A DNA stretch of 64,000 nucleotides from Planctomycetota bacterium (GTDB lineage: Bacteria > Planctomycetota > Phycisphaerae > WQYP01): the NCBI GenBank assembly GCA_021800165.1, contig JAJYZF010000002.1, forward strand, positions 1 to 64,000. Direction: 5' to 3'. Under the pieces are notes generated by a model. That model saw only the letters and a list, made by a program, of their open reading frames with translations, did no database searches and had not been told where the DNA came from. Shown piece by piece: positions 17,501 through 30,125 of the stretch (positions within the stretch are counted from its first letter, which is position 1; every line of letters begins with the position of its first letter). The position numbers were made by a program, and so were the translations under genes.

Positions 17501-18760
17501 TCAGATACGGGATCTTTTCAGGGTCACGCAGTTCTGATAGATGGCCTCAAGCCGTTTCAGGTAAGACTCGGGATCCAGTCCTTGGGTGGCCTTGCGGGCC
17601 AGACTGGCGAGTTTGGTCCGGTCGGCTTGGGAGTGAGGCAGTGCATCCAAAGCGCGAGCCATGGCCTGCACATCGGTGGGAGAGTTCACGATAGTCCCCG
17701 CATGGTGCCTTTCCACCAAGTCAAAGCATCCCAGGAAACGGGTACTGATCACCGGCAGGCCATGGGCCATCGCCTCTAAGGCGACGAGTCCGAAGCTTTC
17801 ATAGAAGGTGGGAAAGAGCAGGGCATCGGCACTGGCATAGGCTCGACTCATCTCGTGAGTTGGTCCGACGAAGATCACACGCTCGGCGAGTCCCAGCCAT
17901 TGGGCCAAGTGCAGATATTCGCGTGTTTTACCAAGGCCGACTACCAACAATTTCCAGGGAGCCTGCGTGACAGCGAGCGTGCGAATAGCCCAGGTAAGAC
18001 CTTTGCGGCGAAAATCGTGGCCGGCAAACAGGGCCACGCGATCTTGCGGGGCGAGACTATAGTGACTGCGGAACCAATCGCGATATTCCAGCAAAAGGGG
18101 CGGGGGAGGGGCTGGTGTCATGAGGGGATTGTCCAGGCGAATGAGCCGGTCATGGCGAACGTGATAATGCCGCTGGAAATCAGAAAGCATTGTTGCGCCC
18201 AGGCATAAAATTTGTCGGGCACCACCCTGTTGCGGGCCGGCCAAGGCTCGGCGTTCCAATTTCAGCAAGGTCTGCTGCTTATCGGAGAATTGCAGCATCC
18301 AGCGTTTGAGTACGGCCTGGCGGAAGGTTTCCCGGCTGGCCACGGCCTGTTCATGAATGCTCGCGTAGACGCCGGCGTGGGGATGATATAAGTCGCCGGG
18401 GCAAGCTACGGTCATGGAGTGAATGATGTCGGGGGCATGAGTGGCGCACCATGCGGCGGCGCGGCGGCCGAACAGGCGAAACCCCAGACCGGTGCGAAGT
18501 TTAAGGCCGCGCAGCCGGTGGACGCGTACGCCGGCGGGTGGATCGGGCATGGCGGGCGAACTGGATTGGCGAGACCGCTCGGCATCATGTGATGCCCCGT
18601 GGCTGGCGGCATGATAGCGGTTGAAACGGGGGGTGTGGTCGTGACAAAGTACGCAAACATCATGGCCCGCAGCGGCTAATTGTCCGCTTAGCCAGACGGT
18701 TATGGCCTCGGCACCGCCGCGGGTGGCATCAAAATGTTCAATGACGAGGGCGATTTTCAT
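17501..18760 (-). CDS. GT4-family glycosyltransferase, WaaG-like
   Basis: 419 residues from the ATG at 18760, whose ATGA overlaps the stop of the upstream gene; a longer frame to 18829 lies inside that gene. The start MKIALVIEHFDATRGGAEAI has the GGAE loop of GT4 enzymes. The C-terminal domain shows ALFAGHDFRRKGLTWAIRTL, YASADALLFPTFYESFGLVALEAMAHGLPVIST, the E-x7-E donor-binding motif. Closest in style to WaaG-type lipopolysaccharide core transferases. Coupled translation with the GT9 enzyme supports a common job in lipopolysaccharide core or other envelope glycan assembly. Donor and acceptor unknown. Confidence 0.88.
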   Translation of the reverse strand: MKIALVIEHFDATRGGAEAITVWLSGQLAAAGHDVCVLCHDHTPRFNRYHAASHGASHDAERSRQSSSPAMPDPPAGVRVHRLRGLKLRTGLGFRLFGRRAAAWCATHAPDIIHSMTVACPGDLYHPHAGVYASIHEQAVASRETFRQAVLKRWMLQFSDKQQTLLKLERRALAGPQQGGARQILCLGATMLSDFQRHYHVRHDRLIRLDNPLMTPAPPPPLLLEYRDWFRSHYSLAPQDRVALFAGHDFRRKGLTWAIRTLAVTQAPWKLLVVGLGKTREYLHLAQWLGLAERVIFVGPTHEMSRAYASADALLFPTFYESFGLVALEAMAHGLPVISTRFLGCFDLVERHHAGTIVNSPTDVQAMARALDALPHSQADRTKLASLARKATQGLDPESYLKRLEAIYQNCVTLKRSRI

Positions 18761-20106
18761 GGGCGGGCCATCCCCCATTGGCGGAGCAGTGCGGCCTGTA
18801 CCATCGGTACGGTCAGGCGATTCATGCAACGGTGGTCGATTGGACAGTGTTTCCGCTGGCAGGGGCCGCAGGGGACGGCTACATGAAGCTGAATCTCGCG
18901 GTCATAAAATACGTCGGCCCATCGCGGGTCGGTGGGGCCAAAGAGGGAAACCAACGGCGTGGCCAGGGCGGCTGCGAAATGGCGTGGGCCGGTGTCATTG
19001 CATAGCATGACGTTAGCCCGGCGCACAATTTCCTTCAGCGCTCCCAGAGCCACACCACGGCCATCATGGACCAAGGATAACGGAACCACAGGCCGACGCA
19101 ATGGGGTGAGATGGGGAGAGAAAAAACGACCTGCGGTGATGGCGGTGCGTTTAAGCAGGGCATCGACGAGAGGTTGTTCTGCCGGCGCTGCGGCGATGAG
19201 GACGCGGGTTTTGAAGGGGCCATCGGGATTGATGAGGGTGGCGGTGATCTGGGCAAAATTTTCGATGGGCCAGCATTTGGAACTGCCAAAACTTGCTCCC
19301 GGCACGAGTATCACAAACGGCTGGCCCTCAAAGACTTCCAACTGGGCCAGAGCGTCCAAGGCCTGTTGGCGTTCGGTGGGGGTAATTCCGAGAATCATTT
19401 TACGTTGGTGATAGCGTGACCCTAAATAATGGGCCAAGGCCATGTAATAGTCGATGGCGGGGGTAGGTTGATAGTTATGCCAGCGGGCGGCAAAACGTTC
19501 GATGCTGCTCATACGGGCGGTGGTGGTGGTAACGGATCCATTGGGCTGTTGCACGGTGAAAATCCATTGATCCGGCTGATCGGGATCTGGTGTAACCGCG
19601 AGCACTTCGCTTTGGGCGGCGGCGGGGTTGCCCTGACGTTTTTCGGCGGTGATGAATTCGATGGCCTTGTTTCTAGCCCATTGAAGCTGGGTTTCATCAT
19701 CGGATCGGCGGCTGGGACGCAGAAAATCCGTTAGCAAAAAACGTCGCCCATCGCGGGCGTAACCAAGGCGGTGGGGAATTCCGGCGCGGTGGGCGAGTAT
19801 GGCCGTTCGAAAATTGTTGGGGAGTAAAACCGCTAGATCAAATTTCAACTTTTTCAGCAGGGACACCGTGGCGGCGGCATCGATGGAAGTACCGTCGTCC
19901 GAGAGGCAATATTGCAGCGACTCGTCGACGATAGGTAAACCGGAAAGGACGGCTTGGGCTAAGCGGCCGCCGATGGCGGAAATTTGGCTCTGCGGATACA
20001 GAATTCGCAAGGCTTTGAGCAACGGCGTGGCCATAACCGCGTCTCCCAGCGGGTTGGGCATGAAAACCAGAATACGCTGGGCAGGAATAGAACGGCCAAG
20101 GGTCAT
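18757..20106 (-). CDS. GT9-family glycosyltransferase, lipopolysaccharide heptosyltransferase II-like
   Basis: 449 residues, about 100 longer than typical WaaF. The N-terminal motif RILVFMPNPLGDAVMATPLL and the C-terminal NDTGPRHFAAALATPLVSLFGPTDPRW are diagnostic of ADP-heptose:LPS heptosyltransferases (GT9). A central block (about residues 150-230, rich in Gln, Thr and Arg) has no counterpart in the usual enzyme. The first gene of a two-gene minus-strand operon with the GT4 enzyme, divergent from rpoB. It implies a lipopolysaccharide-like outer membrane. Whether the sugar is heptose is not proven. Confidence 0.87.
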   Translation of the reverse strand: MTLGRSIPAQRILVFMPNPLGDAVMATPLLKALRILYPQSQISAIGGRLAQAVLSGLPIVDESLQYCLSDDGTSIDAAATVSLLKKLKFDLAVLLPNNFRTAILAHRAGIPHRLGYARDGRRFLLTDFLRPSRRSDDETQLQWARNKAIEFITAEKRQGNPAAAQSEVLAVTPDPDQPDQWIFTVQQPNGSVTTTTARMSSIERFAARWHNYQPTPAIDYYMALAHYLGSRYHQRKMILGITPTERQQALDALAQLEVFEGQPFVILVPGASFGSSKCWPIENFAQITATLINPDGPFKTRVLIAAAPAEQPLVDALLKRTAITAGRFFSPHLTPLRRPVVPLSLVHDGRGVALGALKEIVRRANVMLCNDTGPRHFAAALATPLVSLFGPTDPRWADVFYDREIQLHVAVPCGPCQRKHCPIDHRCMNRLTVPMVQAALLRQWGMARP

Positions 20107-20301
20107 GGTCAGATTGTCGCTGAAGTGCCGAGCAACGGCAAATGATAGCCGCGGATAAGGCCGCGAAAAATGGCCGGACAGCGATGGCTATATTCGCCAT
20201 TAGAAAAATATAATGAGATGGCCATGGTCAAACCAACGTGGGCATAACCTTCGACCACACCCTTGTTTTTGATTTAAGACCGGGGGTAGCTTGATGTTCG
20301 C

Positions 20302-20330
20302 TTGCATTGTCAAAAGGCTTGGGGTATATT
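20302..20330 (+). promoter_or_regulatory. sigma70-type promoter of rpoBC
   Basis: TTGCAT (20302-20307) and TATATT (20325-20330) with the optimal 17-base spacer, about 120 bases before rpoB. The transcript leader would be some 115 bases long. No ribosomal protein genes precede rpoB here, so this promoter probably drives rpoBC on its own. Confidence 0.6.
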
Positions 20331-20455
20331 AAAGGGCTATGAAGTGCCGGGCCGGGATCATAAATAGTGTCTTTCCTTCCTCGCAGATTGCGATAACAGA
20401 ATTGTTCGGTCGCGGCGACCTGAATTAGTTGTGACCATCAACCAGAGGTGTTTTC

Positions 20456-23400
20456 ATGCGTACCATGCCAGTGCGTGACTATTCCAAGCGCGGTGATGCT
20501 CTTGCCGTGCCCAATCTTATCGAGGTGCAAACAGCCGCGTATGCCCGGTTTTTGCAAACCGATGCGGAAAATAACAAGCGGAAGAATGAAGGGTTGGAAG
20601 CGTTGCTGCGCGAAGTGTTTCCAATCGAGTCCTACGACGGCAACATGAAGCTGGAGTACATAAGCTATGACCTGGGCAAGGCGCGTTACACCCAGGATGA
20701 GTGCCGGGCGTTGCGTTTGACCTACGGGATGCCGCTGCGTGTGACGGTGCGTCTAAGCCGCAAGGATAAGCCGGATATCATCGAGGAATCCATTTATCTC
20801 GGTGAGCTGCCGATTATGACCGGGGGCGGGGAATTCATTATTAACGGTGCGGAACGGGTGATCGTTTCGCAGTTGCACCGGTCGCCGGGCGTCGATTTTG
20901 TCATTGACAGCCGGGAAGGTGATCGTCCGCTGCACGCGTGCCGGGTGATACCGGAACGGGGCAGTTGGCTGGAAATTAATGTCACCAAGAAAGACATGCT
21001 GGTGGTGCGGATCGACCAATCCTCAAAAATTCCGGCCACGACATTTCTGCGGGCGATGAGCGAAACCTACGGTTCCGACGAGGCCATTATCCGGGCCTTT
21101 TATGAAACTCGGGTGGTGCCGGTGGGGCAGCTTAAGAGCGAATTTTATGCAGTCGGTGCCCTGGTAGACACGGAAACCGGGGAAGAACTGGTCAAGTCCG
21201 GCGCGATGATCGGTGATCGGGTGGCAAAAATTCAAGCCAGTTCCATCAAAAAGGTGGAAGTGGTGGAGAAAGTGGTTGATCCTGTCATTCTCAACACCAT
21301 GCAAGAGGATGACTCGCACAGTCATAAAGAAGCTTTGCGGAAAATATACGCCCGTTTGCGTCCTGGCAATCCACCCAATGACGATAAGGCCAAGGCGTTG
21401 TTCAATGAGAAATTTTTTGACGGCAATCGTTATCGGTTGGGCCGGGTGGGCCGGTTCCGCATCAATCGGAAGTTTGAGCAAAATGTGCCGGAAGATGTGA
21501 TGACGCTGCGTGCGGAAGACATTGTGGGCAGTTTGCGCTACATCATTGATCTGCGGGCGGGCAAGGGTTATGTGGACGATATCGACCACCTGGGCAATCG
21601 TCGGTTGCGGGCCATTGATGAATTGGCGCAAGAGGAATTGCGCAAAGGCTTTTTGAAGCTTCGCCGCACGGTGCAGGAACGCATGTCCCTGAAAAATCCG
21701 GAAGAAGTGGCCAAAATTGTCGAATTGGTCAATTCCAAGAGCATCAGCAGTTCGGTGGAATTTTTCTTCGGACGCAGTGAACTCTCGCAGGTGGTGGACC
21801 AGACCAATCCACTCTCGCAGTTGACCCATGAACGCCGGCTTTCGGCATTGGGGCCGGGTGGTTTGAATCGCAAGCGTGCGGGTTTTGAAGTGCGTGACGT
21901 GCATAATTCGCACTATGGCCGCGTCTGCCCGATTGAAACGCCGGAAGGTACCAATATCGGCCTGATCGCGTCGCTGGGAATTTATGCCGGCGTGGACGCG
22001 TACGGATTTTTAATTACGCCGTACCGGGTGGTGGAGAACGGCAAAGTGAACGGCCAGGTTAAATATCTGCGTGCCGATGAGGAGATGAAATGTGTGCTGG
22101 CTCCACCGGAGGTGGTAAGTCCGGACAGCGGCAAGGTGAAGCAGGAATTGGTTTTGGCCCGCCAGAATGGCGAACTCCAGCAGGTGCGGGGTGCGGAAAT
22201 ATCTTATGTGGATATTTCGCCAAAACAGACGGTGGCCATCTCGGCGGCCTTGATTCCGTTTTTGGAACATGATGACGCCAACCGGGCTTTGATGGGATCC
22301 AACATGCAGCGGCAAGCGGTGCCGCTGCTGATTACCGATCCACCGATCGTGGCGACGGGCATGGAAAAGCACGTGCCGGTCAATAGTGGCATGGTGGTGC
22401 GGGCGGAGCGTTCGGGCACGGTGACGTATGTGGATGCCAAGCGCATCGTGGTGGATAATTCCGACGAATATGAATTGCGCAAACACGCCGGGCTTAACGA
22501 TAAGACCTGTCTGACGCAAAAGCCGCTGGTGGGGATGGGCCAGAAGGTGAAAAGGGGGCAGATCATCGCCGATGGGCCGGCGTGCCGCAATGGCGAATTG
22601 GCGTTGGGGCGCAATGTGCTGGTGGCGTTTATGACCTACGACGGTTACAACTTTGAAGACGCCATCGTCATCAGCGAAAAGCTGGTGAAAAAGGATGTAT
22701 TCACGTCAATACATATCGAGGAATTTGATATTGAAATCCGGGAAACCAAGCTGGGGCGTGAGGAATTTACCCGGGACATCCCCAATGTCAGCGAAAAGGC
22801 CCTGAAAAATCTGGATGATGGGGGCGTGGTGCGGGTAGGTACGCGTGTTGGGCCGGGCGATATTCTTGTAGGGAAGGTCTCACCGAAGAGTAAGACGGAG
22901 CTTTCTCCGGAAGAAAAGCTGCTGCATGCGATTTTCGGCCGGGCCGGTGAAGATGTGAAAAATGATTCGCTGGAGGTGCCGGCGGGTACGGAAGGCGTGG
23001 TGGTGGGAGCACAGCGCTTCAGCCGTCGGATGCATCTGGGTGACGAGCAGAAAAAACAACTGCTCAAGGACCAGAAAAAGTACGCCGCGGAGATGGATAC
23101 GCGTATTGCCGCCATGTTCCGCCGGATGACCGAAGAAATTAATGAAGCCACGGGGCAGACGATGATTGATCCGTCCACGCGGCAGAAGGTGGGCAAGTCG
23201 GATCTGGACGAAGTTATTCTGGAGCAGGTGGAAGGTTTCAGTGCCAACTGGATCAAAGGTTCGGAAGAGGCGCGCAAACGCGGGGAAGAAATTTATTACC
23301 GCTATAAGTCGCGTCTCAATGAGCTGCGCGAGGAAAAGGAACGCCGTCTGGAACACATGAAGCGCGGTGATGAACTGCCGGCGGGCGTGTTGGAAATGGT

Positions 23401-24202
23401 CAAGGTGTATCTGGCCACCAAGCGGCCGCTGTCGGTGGGTGACAAAATGGCCGGACGGCACGGTAACAAGGGCGTCATTGCTCGTATTGTGCCGGAAGAG
23501 GATATGCCGTTCATGGAGGATGGAACCTCGGTGGAGATACTGCTGAATCCATTGGGTGTGCCGTCACGTATGAATGTGGGACAGATTCTCGAAACCCACC
23601 TCGGTTGGGCGGCGGCGGTACTGGGTTTTCAGGCCGTGACTCCGGTGTTCGATGGTGCGACCGAGGCGGAAATTAACAAGGTGGTGGAAGAGGCCAACGA
23701 GCATGTGCGTAAGCGCCGCAAGGAAACGGCGGACAAGAAGCAGCCGCCTCCGGCGGGTGAGATTTCCGTGGAAATGCCGCCGGCTTTGAAGATGACGTTG
23801 TTTGACGGTCGCACCGGCGAGCCGTTTGAGCAGAAGGTGACTGTGGGTTACATGTACATGCTCAAGCTGCACCATTTGGTGGATGACAAAATTCATGCCC
23901 GTTCGACCGGCCCGTACAGCCTTATTACGCAGCAGCCGCTGGGTGGCAAGGCCCGTACCGGCGGTCAGCGCTTTGGAGAGATGGAAGTTTGGGCGCTGGA
24001 AGCCTACGGCGCAGCGTACGTGTTGCAGGAACTGCTGACAGTGAAATCCGATGACGTGGAAGGCCGTACAAAAATTTATGAAAGTATGGTGAAGGGCAAC
24101 AACACCCTGGAGGCCGGAACGCCCGTATCCTTTGATGTTCTGTGCAATGAAATCAGGGGATTGGGCCTGAACATTACGCTGGAGAAAAAGAAGGGAATAT
24201 AG
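20456..24202 (+). CDS. rpoB: DNA-directed RNA polymerase subunit beta
   Basis: 1248 residues, full length. Catalytic core subunit of RNA polymerase. The N-terminus [19 protein letters not shown] matches the family. The rifampicin region reads [20 protein letters not shown], then [20 protein letters not shown] and [16 protein letters not shown]; later [29 protein letters not shown] and the C-terminal [23 protein letters not shown] are all present. AGAGGTG lies 9 bases before the ATG. Preceded by its own promoter and followed, after a 350-base interval, by rpoC. In the rifampicin pocket the positions equal to E. coli Phe514 and Met515 are both Val. Confidence 0.98.
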
Positions 24203-24242
24203 GCGGATCGTATTATGCGGCGTTTTCCGCGGCGGTGGCACC

Positions 24243-24508
24243 ATGAATTGGAACAAGCGAGTTGTAAGAGCGCTGGTGGCCCGTTACCTCAAGAGCCACC
24301 AGTCGCGGAAATTTGCCCTGGCGGCGAAAGAGTCGTGCGGAATGGTGAATACTGGTACGTGCTGGTGCCGCCGGATAAATCAGGAGGTCGGGCTCTTGAT
24401 TATAAAGGCAATCTAGCGGATACGGAGGAGGACATTCGCCAGCACGAGCGGCAACCTCCGAACCTTTTGCTGATTCCCGTTCTGCCGCCCGATGCCGATG
24501 GTCGGTGA
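24243..24508 (+). pseudogene. small gene between rpoB and rpoC, apparently split by a frameshift
   Basis: Two overlapping frames each look coding over half their length. From an ATG at 24243 one frame reads MNWNKRVVRALVARYLKSH and on to KFALAAKESCG, basic and helical with good codon use. From about 24327 the frame one base back reads ERVVRNGEYWYVLVPPDKSG and continues to a TGA at 24508 (IPVLPPDADGR). Joined with a -1 shift near 24325-24340 they give a sensible protein of about 90 residues. In the second frame alone an open frame from 24215 gives 97 residues, but its first third looks random. It may be a true frameshift, a sequencing error or a small intact gene starting at 24215. Function unknown. 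Confidence 0.4.
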
Positions 24509-24552
24509 CGGAAGGAAAATGAATCTAAACTCTTTGTCAGGAGATTAATAAC

Positions 24553-27500
24553 ATGGCTGAAATTGTATACGACCGGATTAATGATTACGGTGGCGTCAAA
24601 ATTACGCTGGCCAGCCCCAACGATATTCGTTCTTGGAGCTTTGGTGAGGTCAAAAAGCCGGAAACCATCAATTATCGAACATACCGTCCGGAACGGGATG
24701 GACTGTTTTGCGAGCGCATCTTCGGTCCGGAGCGGGATTGGGAATGTGCCTGCGGTAAGTACAAAGGCACCAAATACAAGGGTGTCATCTGTGATCGTTG
24801 CGGGGTGAAAGTTACCCACAGCCGGGTGCGTCGCAAGCGCATGGGTCATATCACGCTCGCCGCGCCGGTCGTGCATATCTGGTTTTTCAAGGCCATGCCG
24901 AGCCGTCTGGGCAACCTGATCGACATGAAGACCAGCGACCTGGAGAAGGTGATCTACTACCAGGATTACTGTGTGACCAATCCGGGCAATACGCCGCTGA
25001 AGCGTAAGCAGCTTCTTTCGGAAGATGAATACCGCGAAGCCCGCGAAAAGTACAAGGAAGAGTTTGAATGTAAAATGGGTGCCGATGCGGTCCATGCGCT
25101 GTTGGCCTCGATGGATCTGGCGGAGGTCTCCGCGAAAATTCGCCTGGATATAGAGAACACCAACAGCAAGCAGAAGATCAAGGACCTGACCAAGCGGCTG
25201 AAAATTGTAGAGGCCATCCGCAAGTCGGAAAACAAGTCCGACTGGATGATCTATGAAGTCATACCGGTGATTCCACCGGATCTTCGGCCGCTGGTGCTGC
25301 TGGAGTCCGGCAATTTCGCCACCAGTGACCTCAACGATTTGTATCGGCGCATCATCAACCGCAACAACCGGCTCAAGAAGCTCTGCGATCTCAACGCCCC
25401 GGAAGTGATTATCCGCAATGAAAAGCGGATGCTCCAGCAGGCGGTGGATTCGCTTTTTGACAATGGCCGGTGCCGTCGCCCGGTGCTCGGTTCGTCCAAT
25501 CGTCCACTCAAGTCGCTCACGGATATGATCAAGGGAAAGCAGGGTCGTTTCCGCGAAAATCTGCTGGGTAAGCGGGTGGATTATTCCGCCCGTTCGGTCA
25601 TTGTGGTAGGTCCGGAACTGAAGATTCACCAGTGCGGTATGCCCAAAAAAATCGCCCTGGAATTGTTCCAGCCGTTTATTATCCGTAAGCTCAAGGAATA
25701 TGGTCTGGCTGACACGATCAAATCGGCCAAGAAGATGATTGAACGCCGGGATCAGGAAATCTGGGACATCCTGGAAGAGGTCATCAAAGGTCACCCGGTG
25801 ATGCTGAACCGGGCACCCACGTTACACCGCATGGGTATTCAGGCGTTTGAACCGGTATTAATTGAAGGCAACGCCATTAAGATTCACCCGCTGGTGTGCA
25901 AGGGCTTCAATGCCGATTTCGACGGCGACCAGATGGCGGTGCATCTGCCTTTGTCCATTGAAGCCCAGGCGGAGGCGCATGTGCTGATGTTGGCGACGCA
26001 TAACATTTTCTCGCCGGCCAACGGTTCTCCGATCATCGGCCCATCGCAGGATATTGTCTTGGGAATTTACTATATCACCACCATGCGCCGCGGAGAAGCG
26101 GGAGAGCGTCCGGAAGGTCGTGAACTGGCCTTCCGTGATTTCCATGAAGCGTGGTTGGCCTTTGATGAGCGGAAGATCGGCATGCACACGCCCATTCGTG
26201 TGCGCATCAACCGTGATGCGGTCGTGAGCGGTCAAAATAAGGGGGCGGAGCCGGTGCCCGCCAATCGGTCGATTATCACCACGGTGGGCCGTTGTTTGTT
26301 TAATGATATCCTGCCCGCGAAGATGCCGTTTTATAACTACGCTCTTTCCAGCAAGGGCGGCAGCCGCGTGATTGCCGATTGTTACCGTATTTTGGGCCGG
26401 CCCGCCACCATCAATCTGCTTGATGATATGAAGGAGCTTGGTTTCAAACGGTCGACGCTTGCGGGCCTGAGCTTCGGTATCACCGATCTGCGCATTCCCG
26501 GTCGTAAAGCCCAGATCATTGAGGATTCGCAGAAAAAAGCCGATCGGGTGGAAAAGAATCTGAACCTTGGAGCCATTACTGAACGCGAACGTTATAACCA
26601 GCTTCTGGACATCTGGGCGCACGCTCGTGAAGAAGTAACCAAGGACATGATGCAGGAGTTGGAACACGATACCCGTGACGCGAAAAATACGCTCTTGCCG
26701 CCCAATGATTCCCGCGGCAAGCCCTACCTGAACCCGATATTTCTGATGGCTGATTCGGGTGCCCGTGGTAACGTAGACAACTTCCGGCAGTTGGCGGGTA
26801 TGCGGGGGCTGATGAGCCGACCGTCGGGCGAAATCATGGAAACTCCCATTCGTACCAATTTCCGTGAAGGTCTTTCGGTGCTGGAATACTTCACCTCCAC
26901 CCACGGTGCCCGTAAAGGTTTGGCGGATACCGCGTTGAAAACGGCGGATTCGGGTTATCTGACGCGCAAACTCGCCGACGTGGCCCAGAATGTGATTGTC
27001 AGCCAGCACGACTGCGGTACCCAAAATGGGATAAAAAAGAGTGCCATCTACAAGGGGGACCAGATTGACGTACCCCTGCGGGAAATCATTATTGGTCGCT
27101 GCGCCGCTGATTCCTTGGTTAACCCCATCACCGATGAAGTGATCGTCAAGGAAGGTCAGATCATCACCGATGCGGTGGCCCGTAAAATCGAAGACCTGAA
27201 TATGGAAACCGTGCGGGTGCGCAGTCCGCTGACGTGCGAGGCCCCCACAGGTGTGTGCGCCTGCTGCTACGGCGTGGATTTGTCTACCAATGCCCTGGTG
27301 GAAGAGGGCATGGCGGTGGGTATCATCGCGGCCCAGTCCATCGGAGAACCGGGCACGCAGCTTACCATGCGTACGTTTCATACCGGTGGTTCGGCCACAC
27401 GTATTCTGGAGAAAAACGATGTGCGTTCCGGCGTGGCGGGCATCGTGGAATACCGTGACCTCAACGCGGTGGAGTCGCGCGATGCCGAAGGCAACAAGCA

Positions 27501-28968
27501 CACGATGGTGCTTAAACGCAACGGCGAAATCCTGGTGCGGGACGCCAAAGGCCGCGAATTGGAAAAGTATAAAATCCCGTATGGTGCGGCCCTGCACGTG
27601 AAGGATGGTGAAAGTGTTCGAGCTGGTCAGCAGCTTTGTAGCTGGGATCAGCACCGGACGCCCATTCTGGCGGAAAAGGCTGGGGTCATTAAATTTGAAG
27701 ACATTCAGGAAGGTGAAACGGCCCGGGTGGAAAGCGAAGGTAAAGGTGGCAGCAAGCGCCTGGTCATCGTGGAACACCGCGGGGAACGCCATCCGCGAAT
27801 TGTAATTGAAGATCCCGATGACGGTAAAATTCTGGACTTCCACTATCTGCCGGCCAAGGCCCGTATCGACGTGGATGCCGGTCAGAAGGTGCAACCCGGT
27901 ACATTGCTGGCCCGGCAGCCGCGGGAAATCAAAGGCACCTCCGATATTACCTCCGGTTTGCCGCGGGTGACGGAAATCTTTGAGGCTCGTAAGCCCAAGG
28001 ATACGGCGATCATGGCGGAGATTTCCGGTACGGTGGAACTGCGCAACGACAAGCGTCGGGGCAAGATGACCATCATCATCCGGGGTGGCGGCGATGTGGA
28101 AAAGGATCATCATGTGCCGCAGGATCGACAGTTGCGTGTGCATACCGGCGATCAGGTGGAAGCGGGCGATCCTTTAATCGATGGTCCCATGGTACCGCAT
28201 GATATTCTGCGCATCAGGGGTGAGGATGCCTTGCAGGAATATCTTATCACCGAGGTGCAAAATGTTTATCGCACGCAGAATCAGCGGATCAGCGACAAGC
28301 ACATCGAAGTGATTGTTTCGCAGATGCTGCACAAGGTTAAAGTTGAGAATCCGGGCGACACCGCGTTTCTGCCGGGCGAGGTGTTGGATAAGTTTCGTTT
28401 CCGCCGCGGAAATGAAGCGGTGGCCAAACTGCATCGCGTGGAAGATCCGGGCGATAGCGAACTGGCTGTTGGGACGCTGCTTACCCGTGAGCAGGTCAAA
28501 GAGGTGGTCGCGACGGTTGAGGGCAAAGGTGGCAAGCCACCCAAAACCCGTCGAGCGCGGCCGGCCAACGCGAAAACTCTGCTCCTGGGTATTACCAAGG
28601 CCAGCCTGCAAAGTGAATCGTTTGTATCCGCGGCAAGCTTCCAGGAGACTACCAAGGTGCTTACCGAGGCGGCTTTGGCCGGTCGTGAAGACACCCTGCA
28701 AGGGTTGAAGGAAAATGTCATTCTCGGCCATTTGATTCCGGCCGGGACGGCTTTCCGGCAATATCAGAATCTGCAGATCTCGCACCTCGGCGAGCCTGTG
28801 CCGGAAACGGATATGGAAATTCCCATCATCAATCGGTTGCCGCTGGCAGAAGCCATGCGGGTAACAGGGGGTGCTGCCGCCGTTGCTGAATCCGCGGCCA
28901 CCGAAACCGCCGCCACGGAGTCTTCCGCGGTTGTGGCCGAGCCGCCCAAGGAAACCGCCGGAGCCTGA
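24553..28968 (+). CDS. rpoC: DNA-directed RNA polymerase subunit beta'
   Basis: 1471 residues. The N-terminal zinc finger begins with CACGKYKG and [10 protein letters not shown] (residues about 68-88). The catalytic loop [12 protein letters not shown] holds Asp455, Asp457 and Asp459, which bind the active-site magnesium. The second zinc site lies near residues 895-905 ([13 protein letters not shown]). [20 protein letters not shown] is the bridge-helix/trigger-loop region. GGAG lies 9 bases before the ATG. The last 60 residues form an Ala/Thr/Glu-rich tail beyond the usual end. The region 1150-1330 holds a family-typical beta-rich insertion. A strong terminator follows. Confidence 0.98.
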
Positions 28969-28995
28969 CGCGGGAAAATTCGTACGCCAAAGATC

Positions 28996-29037
28996 AAAGG
29001 GCCGATGTTGTTCTTTACAACACCGGCCCTTTTTTTT
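28996..29037 (+). terminator. Rho-independent terminator of rpoBC
   Basis: AAAGGGCCG-A-TGTTG (28996-29010) pairs with CAACA-C-CGGCCCTTT (29018-29032) around a 7-base loop, one mismatch, and runs directly into eight T residues (29030-29037). The clearest terminator in the window. Confidence 0.93.
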
Positions 29038-29205
29038 ATCAATAGGCTGGCATTTTTTGGGGATGTGGTTGGATCGGGTGTGCCGCCATCACCATCGGGG
29101 CGGGGTGCGCCAGGCGAACCGCTGCGTCAGTGCTGTGAAGGTTCGGTGCCGTTGGCCACTGGGATTCCTGATGTTGCGGCACCAGCCTGGATCATCAACA
29201 GCGCG

Positions 29206-29442
29206 ATGATGAAACCGACATGCAACGGGTTGGCGCTCTTGAAACGCATGGCCATACGCCAACGCCGGTTGTTGGTGTTCTGGCAGAATGGGGGCGGGTC
29301 GGATTTACCCGCCGCACCAGAGCTTACGTACATGGTGGACGATTGTTATGGTGGTGGCGAGCGGGTTGTCCTTATCGGTCCTGTTGAAAAAATGATTGAG
29401 ATGTTTCAGCGTCTGGATGAGCAAATGCCGATAGATTGTTGA
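29206..29442 (+). CDS. hypothetical small protein
   Basis: 78 codons from paired ATGs at 29206/29209; the frame is open further upstream but that part overlaps the rpoC terminator. No family is recognised. The last 40 residues (LTYMVDDCYGGGERVVLIGP, then VEKMIEMFQRLDEQMP) look like a real folded segment with strand and helix. Its stop is two bases before the ATG of the next gene, which supports both as a pair. There is no clear ribosome binding site. Confidence 0.45.
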   Translation: MMKPTCNGLALLKRMAIRQRRLLVFWQNGGGSDLPAAPELTYMVDDCYGGGERVVLIGPVEKMIEMFQRLDEQMPIDC

Positions 29443-29444
29443 CC

Positions 29445-30125
29445 ATGATTAAGAGCAAGACTTATCCTCCTACAACCTGTGGCAGCGGCATGCCCGAAAG
29501 CCTGCATTTATCCGGTTTGCTTACCAGATATGATCCGGAAAGCTCAATCGGTGAATTATCAGACCGTCGGTCAGGGCGGTTGCGCGTGCAGGCTACCGCC
29601 ACTTCAGTAACGGCGCATCGGCGTACAACGGTGCGCCCGTCGGCGCTGGTCGCCCCAGATCCGCTGGCCGAGTTGGGAATCCTTAGTGCGGAGATAAGTC
29701 GCGGGGGCATTGGCAGTTCGCGGTTGCCAGCCCATGGAAAGCGTGTACCCATGGGAGTGATTTCCGTGCTGGTTGTGGTTATAGCAACCTTGGTGGTGGG
29801 CTTTGCGTGCCGTCGGCCGTTGGGCCATCTGCTGGTGTCCGGACCTGCACCTCTTGCTTACAAAACCGACACGCCCCGCGGGATTGCAGCACCTGCGCCG
29901 CGGCGGAAGCCGACATCCGGCCTGGCTGATTCGCAACAGCGGGGAAGGCAAGCACCTGTTTCAGCGGCTCCAACCCGCGCACTTTCATCGCCCAAAGGCC
30001 GCCGTGGGCACCGGGTCGTCACTCACTTACCGGCCAAAACCGCAGACAACATCAGCGGTGGTTCGGAGACCTTCTCCAGTGATCCGCCCGGAGCTTTGTT
30101 CACGCATATTGGCACTGCGCAGTAA
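29445..30125 (+). CDS. hypothetical single-span membrane protein
   Basis: 226 residues from the ATG at 29445, two bases after the preceding stop. About 100 polar residues come first, then one membrane span (VISVLVVVIATLVVGFACRRPL near residues 105-125) and a basic, Pro/Ala/Ser-rich tail of 100 residues. No known domain is visible. The tail could cross the periplasm or bind the cell wall or nucleic acid; that is a guess. Convergent with lipB. Confidence 0.5.
   Translation: MIKSKTYPPTTCGSGMPESLHLSGLLTRYDPESSIGELSDRRSGRLRVQATATSVTAHRRTTVRPSALVAPDPLAELGILSAEISRGGIGSSRLPAHGKRVPMGVISVLVVVIATLVVGFACRRPLGHLLVSGPAPLAYKTDTPRGIAAPAPRRKPTSGLADSQQRGRQAPVSAAPTRALSSPKGRRGHRVVTHLPAKTADNISGGSETFSSDPPGALFTHIGTAQ

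Follow-up and report, generated by a model that had tools for sequence, protein, structure and literature searches.

A probable dead remnant of a two-gene HEPN module between rpoB and rpoC in a Planctomycetota bacterium, and its intact relatives in the class

Among described systems, the HEPN/MNT pair (HepT/MntA) resembles the module studied here in having two small adjacent genes, one of them encoding a HEPN protein, and BrnT/BrnA resembles it as a pair of small genes, of which BrnT is found, in other members of the class, in the same gap between rpoB and rpoC. The HEPN superfamily includes members without its catalytic motif, as described in the HEPN review (PMC3710099). The present locus lies in the window, the whole 64,000-nucleotide stretch analyzed here (Planctomycetota bacterium, Phycisphaerae, contig JAJYZF010000002.1), where rpoB and rpoC are separated by 350 bp. 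Genes between rpoB and rpoC are unusual. The flanks of the gap read as follows:

20456..24202, + strand: rpoB (1,248 aa; ORF list), matched in 40 of the 41 genomes searched, its own included
24539..24543, + strand: AGGAG, a ribosome-binding-like site of rpoC (direct sequence reading)
24553..28968, + strand: rpoC (1,471 aa; ORF list)

The rpoB stop codon is TAG at 24200–24202. In many bacteria rplJ-rplL lie directly ahead of rpoBC; here the ORF 5′ of rpoB (18757–20456, from the ORF list only) runs on the other strand, leaving rpoBC without a direct rplJ-rplL lead-in. Rfam gave no match over window positions 20000–30000, and the window ORFs matched no Pfam or NCBIfam family, which also left no trace of BrnT/BrnA in this gap. 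Sigma-70-like and terminator-like sites were about as frequent as in shuffled sequence, both in the window stretch and in an intact locus of the same family (G005); the exception was an excess of terminator-like sites in the window stretch (four, with 1.4 expected), all of which lie outside the rpoB–rpoC gap.

In six genomes of the same family (G005, G015, G022, G024, G042 and G043), the rpoB–rpoC gap holds a full module, consisting of a HEPN gene of ~122–132 codons followed by a gene of 86–90 codons, here called the partner. The two genes overlap as ATGA in 6 of the 7 loci tabulated, so they are probably translationally coupled. Among the 28 family genomes searched (the window's own included), nine contain the partner, every match being inside the rpoB–rpoC gap; one of them (G020) has an intact partner and only a stump of the last part of HEPN. 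The gap measures 40–131 bp in eight other family members (G007, G008, G010, G011, G014, G019, G021 and G023), and in G012 it is occupied by BrnT and a small gene that is BrnA-like by eye. Two genomes of the window's own genus (G004 and G002) have gaps of 312 and 387 bp with no recognizable module. Candidate HEPN crumbs in these two gaps were rejected, as the profile gave at most 0.7 bits and blastn found only the last ~40–57 bp beside rpoC in common with the window; both gaps were counted as empty.

Two ORFs were confirmed in the window gap, 24243–24416 (57 aa) and 24215–24508 (97 aa). A first-pass annotation had read them as a single small frameshifted gene within the rpoBC operon, with the first half in one frame and the second half in the frame one base back. 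The gap was scored with a partner profile built from intact relatives; the control was a set of 500 order-1 Markov versions of it, read in all six frames (best 6.4 bits). The following features were assigned:

24209..24236, + strand: last recognizable piece of the HEPN gene (codons for ..YYAAFSAAV..), from blastn of the gap, with the junction as in G001
24215..24508, + strand: 97-aa single-frame ORF, its first ~38 residues off-frame relative to intact homologs and the rest being the partner 3′ part
24243..24331, + strand: 5′ part of the partner gene in the frame of 24243 (MNWNKRVVRALVARYLKSHQSRKFALAAKE..), profile positions 1–38, 32.1 bits
24326..24335 (about), + strand: frame change, net −1 or +2 relative to intact relatives, from profile frames and sequence comparison
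24329..24508, + strand: 3′ part of the partner gene including the stop codon (..RVVRNGEYWYVLVPPDKSGGRALDYKGNLADTEEDIRQHERQPPNLLLIPVLPPDADGR), profile positions 30–87, 76.7 bits (frame of 24215)

The 3′ part is 63% identical to the partner of G005, and the window genome contains no further partner copy at E ≤ 1e-3. With both halves scoring above the control in their two frames and the gene unbroken in relatives, the frameshifted reading is borne out, and the frame change falls within 24310–24350, the stretch named in the first pass. The relatives' gap, proposed as the place to look, contains an unbroken single-frame gene at the same place in the six same-family genomes. A conserved protein therefore exists, while none of the family copies read conserves a 97-aa product in the 24215 frame. 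The small gene is thus real, but it is half of a two-gene module that the first pass had not seen. The suggestion that a ~90-residue protein is made in the window is not supported, as the gene is the frame-broken half of a decayed module whose HEPN gene is almost wholly deleted.

The HEPN gene is reduced in the window to ~28 bp recognizable by DNA. Using blastn, the gap matched the HEPN genes of G005 (26 nt at 88%, E 1.7e-5), G042 (28 nt at 86%, E 1.8e-5) and G043 (24 nt at 87.5%, E 2e-4); as a protein profile, the same piece scored 5.8 bits, where the best control reached 5.5, and so was not clearly above chance. The HEPN-to-partner junction is common to the window and G001, a genome of the same genus, and the lesions differ: G001 has more of HEPN left and a broken partner, with other lesions that include a lost stop codon. 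The common junction indicates that HEPN was largely deleted before the two genomes parted. The partner would then have broken separately in the window genome and in G001, with loss of HEPN making the partner dispensable and so open to decay.

Between the 3′ parts of the window and G001, differences fall at 6/3/7 of 43 first/second/third codon positions, compared to 2/0/18 of 100 for rpoB in the same comparison and to 9/5/20 of 88, 22/10/38 of 87/87/86 and 5/8/26 of 86 in three pairs of intact partners. The third-position share is 7/16 between the remnants versus 20/34, 38/70 and 26/39 in the intact pairs, a weak contrast. From these small numbers, which are no proof alone, the comparison leans toward relaxed constraint. 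Taken together, the gap feature is almost certainly a decayed remnant, and we consider it likely that 24203–24508 in particular is what is left of a dead module of HEPN and a ~88-residue partner, the intact form of which is toxin–antitoxin-like in its inferred function. In itself, the gene in the window is an unremarkable pseudogene.

Sequencing or assembly error, by which the partner would really be intact here as an orphan without HEPN, is an improbable alternative. A single small indel would account for the frame change, and in G020 an orphan partner does stay intact. However, no homopolymer longer than three lies at the frame-change spot, the G001 copy of the same genus is damaged by other lesions, the substitutions seem little constrained (on small numbers) and HEPN is lost either way. 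Far less probable is that the 97-aa ORF starting at 24215 encodes a new, functional protein joining an off-frame N-terminal half to the partner's C-terminal half: it is open from an ATG and shares the stretch WHHE.EQA..K.AGGPLPQEP with G001 in that frame, but in G001 a stop precedes the C-terminal half, and DNA identity between the window and G001 (82% over 343 bp) explains the common stretch. Programmed −1 frameshifting into one ~90-residue protein, entertained in the first pass, is hardly credible even with two long, recognizable halves, as every intact copy in the family (7 of 7, alignment A1) is single-frame with the two-frame arrangement not conserved, no X-XXY-YYZ slippery heptamer was seen by eye at 24320–24340 and the damage in G001 differs. 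The intact single-frame relatives, the near-complete deletion of HEPN and the differently damaged G001 together argue for a decayed module, in which the shift is a lesion.

The decay order in the window has parallels elsewhere. The partner is kept without an intact HEPN in G020, in G165 (HEPN split) and in G035 (no HEPN detected); G145, also with no HEPN detected, is perhaps HEPN-less, its partner match being partial (positions 24–82 only). Wherever a module was read with HEPN intact, an ORF occupies the partner position, although in G068 and G310 this ORF has no profile score and was recognized by position and by eye. Loss of the partner with HEPN kept was not clearly seen, G068 and G310 being counterexamples if their ORFs are not partners. 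HEPN thus seems to go first.

The distribution of the module was assessed across the class. Of 397 class genomes, 24 matched the partner profile (E ≤ 1e-3). A HEPN profile (E ≤ 1e-16) added another 10, all with an ORF where the partner would lie, giving a module in 34 of 397 genomes when dead and HEPN-less copies are included. Records recovered with the partner profile (8 loci) come from MAGs labeled Planctomycetota, Phycisphaerales and Phycisphaerae. Inspection of weaker HEPN matches (above E 1e-16) was confined for the most part to genomes already read and L205, and there may be lone HEPN genes among these weaker matches. In L205, HEPN follows a fragment that is nucleotidyltransferase-like by eye. 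By site, the 34 genomes divide into rpoB–rpoC (19), iscS–iscU (7) and elsewhere (8), the last group having no rpoB, rpoC, iscS or iscU match within the ~3-kb locus; as the A1 seeds were rpoB–rpoC copies only, these counts may lean toward that site. The iscS–iscU modules (L058, L062, L064, L194, L201, L202 and L203) come from seven genomes of four families. Two modules share the rpoB–rpoC gap of G172, with an acetyltransferase-like gene (by eye) between them, and G375 carries a second module elsewhere. A phylum-wide search for the partner in 392 genomes gave three matches at E ≤ 1e-5, the window and two genomes of family f72. In one of these f72 genomes, the module (L175, 983–1614) sits between the C-terminus of a glutamate-synthase large subunit (GXGXG) and a small-subunit-like gene (gltB–gltD), and in the other (L174) it is followed by 36 codons similar to the L175 small-subunit gene.

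A tree of 32 HEPN-plus-partner rows, with several long branches and 10 of 29 inner branches open, separated the iscS–iscU copies from all other rows by a single branch, recovered in 82% of bootstrap trees (support 84/85). Over all rows, site required 7 changes (least possible 3) and host family 14 (least possible 9), each clustered, with 0 of 300 shuffles as low; 7 and 14 do not make a fair direct comparison, since site has 4 labels and family has 10. We reduced the set to rpoB–rpoC and iscS–iscU rows with one row of family f1 kept (19 rows). Site then required a single change (mean of shuffles 5.8, with 0 of 300 as low), and host family required 10 (least 7; mean of shuffles 12.0, with 21 of 300 as low). 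Single clades were rejected for f4 and f14, the families with modules at both sites (p-AU 0.0019 and 2.3e-7, for groups picked after the tree was seen). The clean split by site and the rejection of f4 and f14 indicate that rpoB–rpoC and iscS–iscU carry separate lineages, which do not follow the boundaries of host families. This pattern would fit both ancient inheritance followed by many losses and same-site transfer via recombination in flanking genes.

The HEPN protein was recognized as Pfam PF05168 above the gathering score of 22 bits in the three proteins scanned (23.7 and 31.9 bits, and 25.1 in L175). Its AlphaFold2 model (pLDDT 90) has the helical fold, with the archaeal HEPN protein 2hsb as the best solved match (Z 16.9, rmsd 2.3, 118 aligned). 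The catalytic Rx4-6H is missing from its helix-4 place in all but one of 32 aligned copies, 31 having R..[AS]DY and one R..ADH, so the RNase activity of this HEPN protein is unsure. An invariant His (32 of 32) lies between helices 2 and 3 (residue 60 in the first row of A6), 33 residues before the helix-4 Arg.

The intact partner had no Pfam or NCBIfam match at cut-off and none in PADLOC, no relative in viral contigs and no plasmid match; against PDB sequences it returned nothing useful (two chains at E 0.5 and 0.63). Its model (pLDDT 85) has the order helix-strand-strand-helix-strand, an alpha-beta-beta-alpha-beta arrangement that we take to be KH-II-like. The nearest solved matches were modest and belonged to RbfA (Z 8.6 for 1jos, then 8.0 and 7.8), with Era and RimP at up to Z 7.4; Ohr/OsmC-type proteins, MamM and BolA gave Z 6.4–7.2, and the Z of 8.6 is near the level of such unrelated models. 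Foldseek with the partner model gave no match at E ≤ 0.001 (best E 0.03).

As for what the intact module does, the chances seem to us about even that it is a toxin–antitoxin-like pair traveling as a passenger in housekeeping operons. This reading draws on the small coupled genes, the HEPN fold, the patchy presence, the company of BrnT and the HEPN-first decay. Type II-like traits found are the two small adjacent coupled genes (ATGA at 6 of 7 loci) and their patchiness (34 of 397 class genomes). On this reading HEPN would act on RNA and inhibit growth, and the translationally coupled, small KH-II-like partner would restrain it; because no promoter above chance level was found, the module would be transcribed along with the RNA polymerase operon. 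Loss of HEPN with the partner kept fits a toxin and its antitoxin without being proof. The absence of the usual RNase motif from HEPN and the position of HEPN as the first gene weigh against such a pair.

The chief alternative is that the intact module regulates the gene downstream of it locally, at the RNA level: by binding or cutting the intergenic mRNA, HEPN and its KH-like partner would tune expression of rpoC or iscU. We regard this as rather unlikely. Loyalty to rpoB–rpoC and iscS–iscU (19 and 7 of 34 genomes), together with gltB–gltD in L175, speaks for regulation, as do the KH-II-like partner model and the non-catalytic RNA-binding roles proposed for motif-less HEPN proteins in the HEPN review (PMC3710099). 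However, the 8 of 34 genomes without a match to any of the four genes in the ~3-kb locus, the close relatives that live without the module and the unrelated small genes that also occupy the gap all speak against it. Returning to the toxin–antitoxin-like pair, we tentatively picture, with somewhat less than even confidence, a promoter-poor planctomycete family of HEPN and KH-like genes adapted to sites between genes for cooperating subunits of housekeeping complexes (rpoB|rpoC, iscS|iscU and gltB|gltD), moving between hosts at the same site, perhaps by flanking-gene recombination, with its addiction tied to an essential operon and the window copy having died toxin-first.

The rpoB–rpoC gap was also surveyed as a habitat. 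Among 95 further class genomes fetched, a set that left out most same-genus repeats and 12 genomes in which rpoB and rpoC were matched as one piece (short gaps), 27 have gaps of at least 250 bp; the median gap is 106 bp over 133 loci with both ends, a set that includes loci fetched for holding the module. The 27 long gaps contain BrnT in four cases (L085, L088, L121 and L136, by Pfam), an acetyltransferase-like gene in eight (L079, L090, L092, L110, L141, L158, L170 and L171, with L079 and L158 below the Pfam cut-off) and, as other Pfam assignments, a 23S-IVP protein in three, PDDEXK_3 in one and a glyoxalase in one. A lipoprotein-like gene (by eye) is present in four, all of family f4 (L129, L139, L146 and L167); Pfam gave no match for those of L129, L139 and L146, L167 being outside the scan. 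Six long gaps are without assignment (L094 outside the Pfam scan). The gap BrnT genes of other class members (L017, L025, L085, L088, L121 and L136) each stand beside a small gene with no Pfam match at cut-off, and the acetyltransferase-like gene is single and recurrent, often with a string like GTEVDFCEELGF.

Among the matches listed in the literature searched (titles and abstract openings, with most subscription journals outside), no description was found of a HEPN–partner module or of a toxin–antitoxin system between rpoB and rpoC. The module appears to be a new form among HEPN-based two-gene systems, pairing HEPN with an unclassified small partner. What gives the window pseudogene its value is the module behind it, whose place within RNA polymerase and iron–sulphur operons suggests a little-noticed toxin–antitoxin-like element sheltering among essential genes. 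With BrnT and other small genes gathering in the same gap of one class, this is a concrete case of selfish or stress modules sheltering in essential operons.

Compared to known proteins, the partner model has the alpha-beta-beta-alpha-beta arrangement in common with RbfA, the KH domain of Era and the N-terminal domain of RimP (best Z 8.6, 7.4 and 7.4), but the partner differs from all three in matching no Pfam family at cut-off and in gene context, and the fold match is modest. The HEPN protein is alike in fold to AF_0298 (2hsb; Z 16.9) and TT1696 (1ufb; Z 14.7), at sequence identities of 16% and 21%, respectively. Structures of HepT and its relatives are also among its fold matches (Z 8.3–9.6). 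Unlike HEPN/MNT, the module has no nucleotidyltransferase partner that we could find, its partner is downstream and modeled with another fold, and Rx4-6H is replaced by R..[AS]DY in 31 of 32 copies. BrnT/BrnA, for all its likeness in size and site, consists of unrelated proteins. In gene order the module has HEPN first, unlike many type II systems as described in the HEPN review (PMC3710099).
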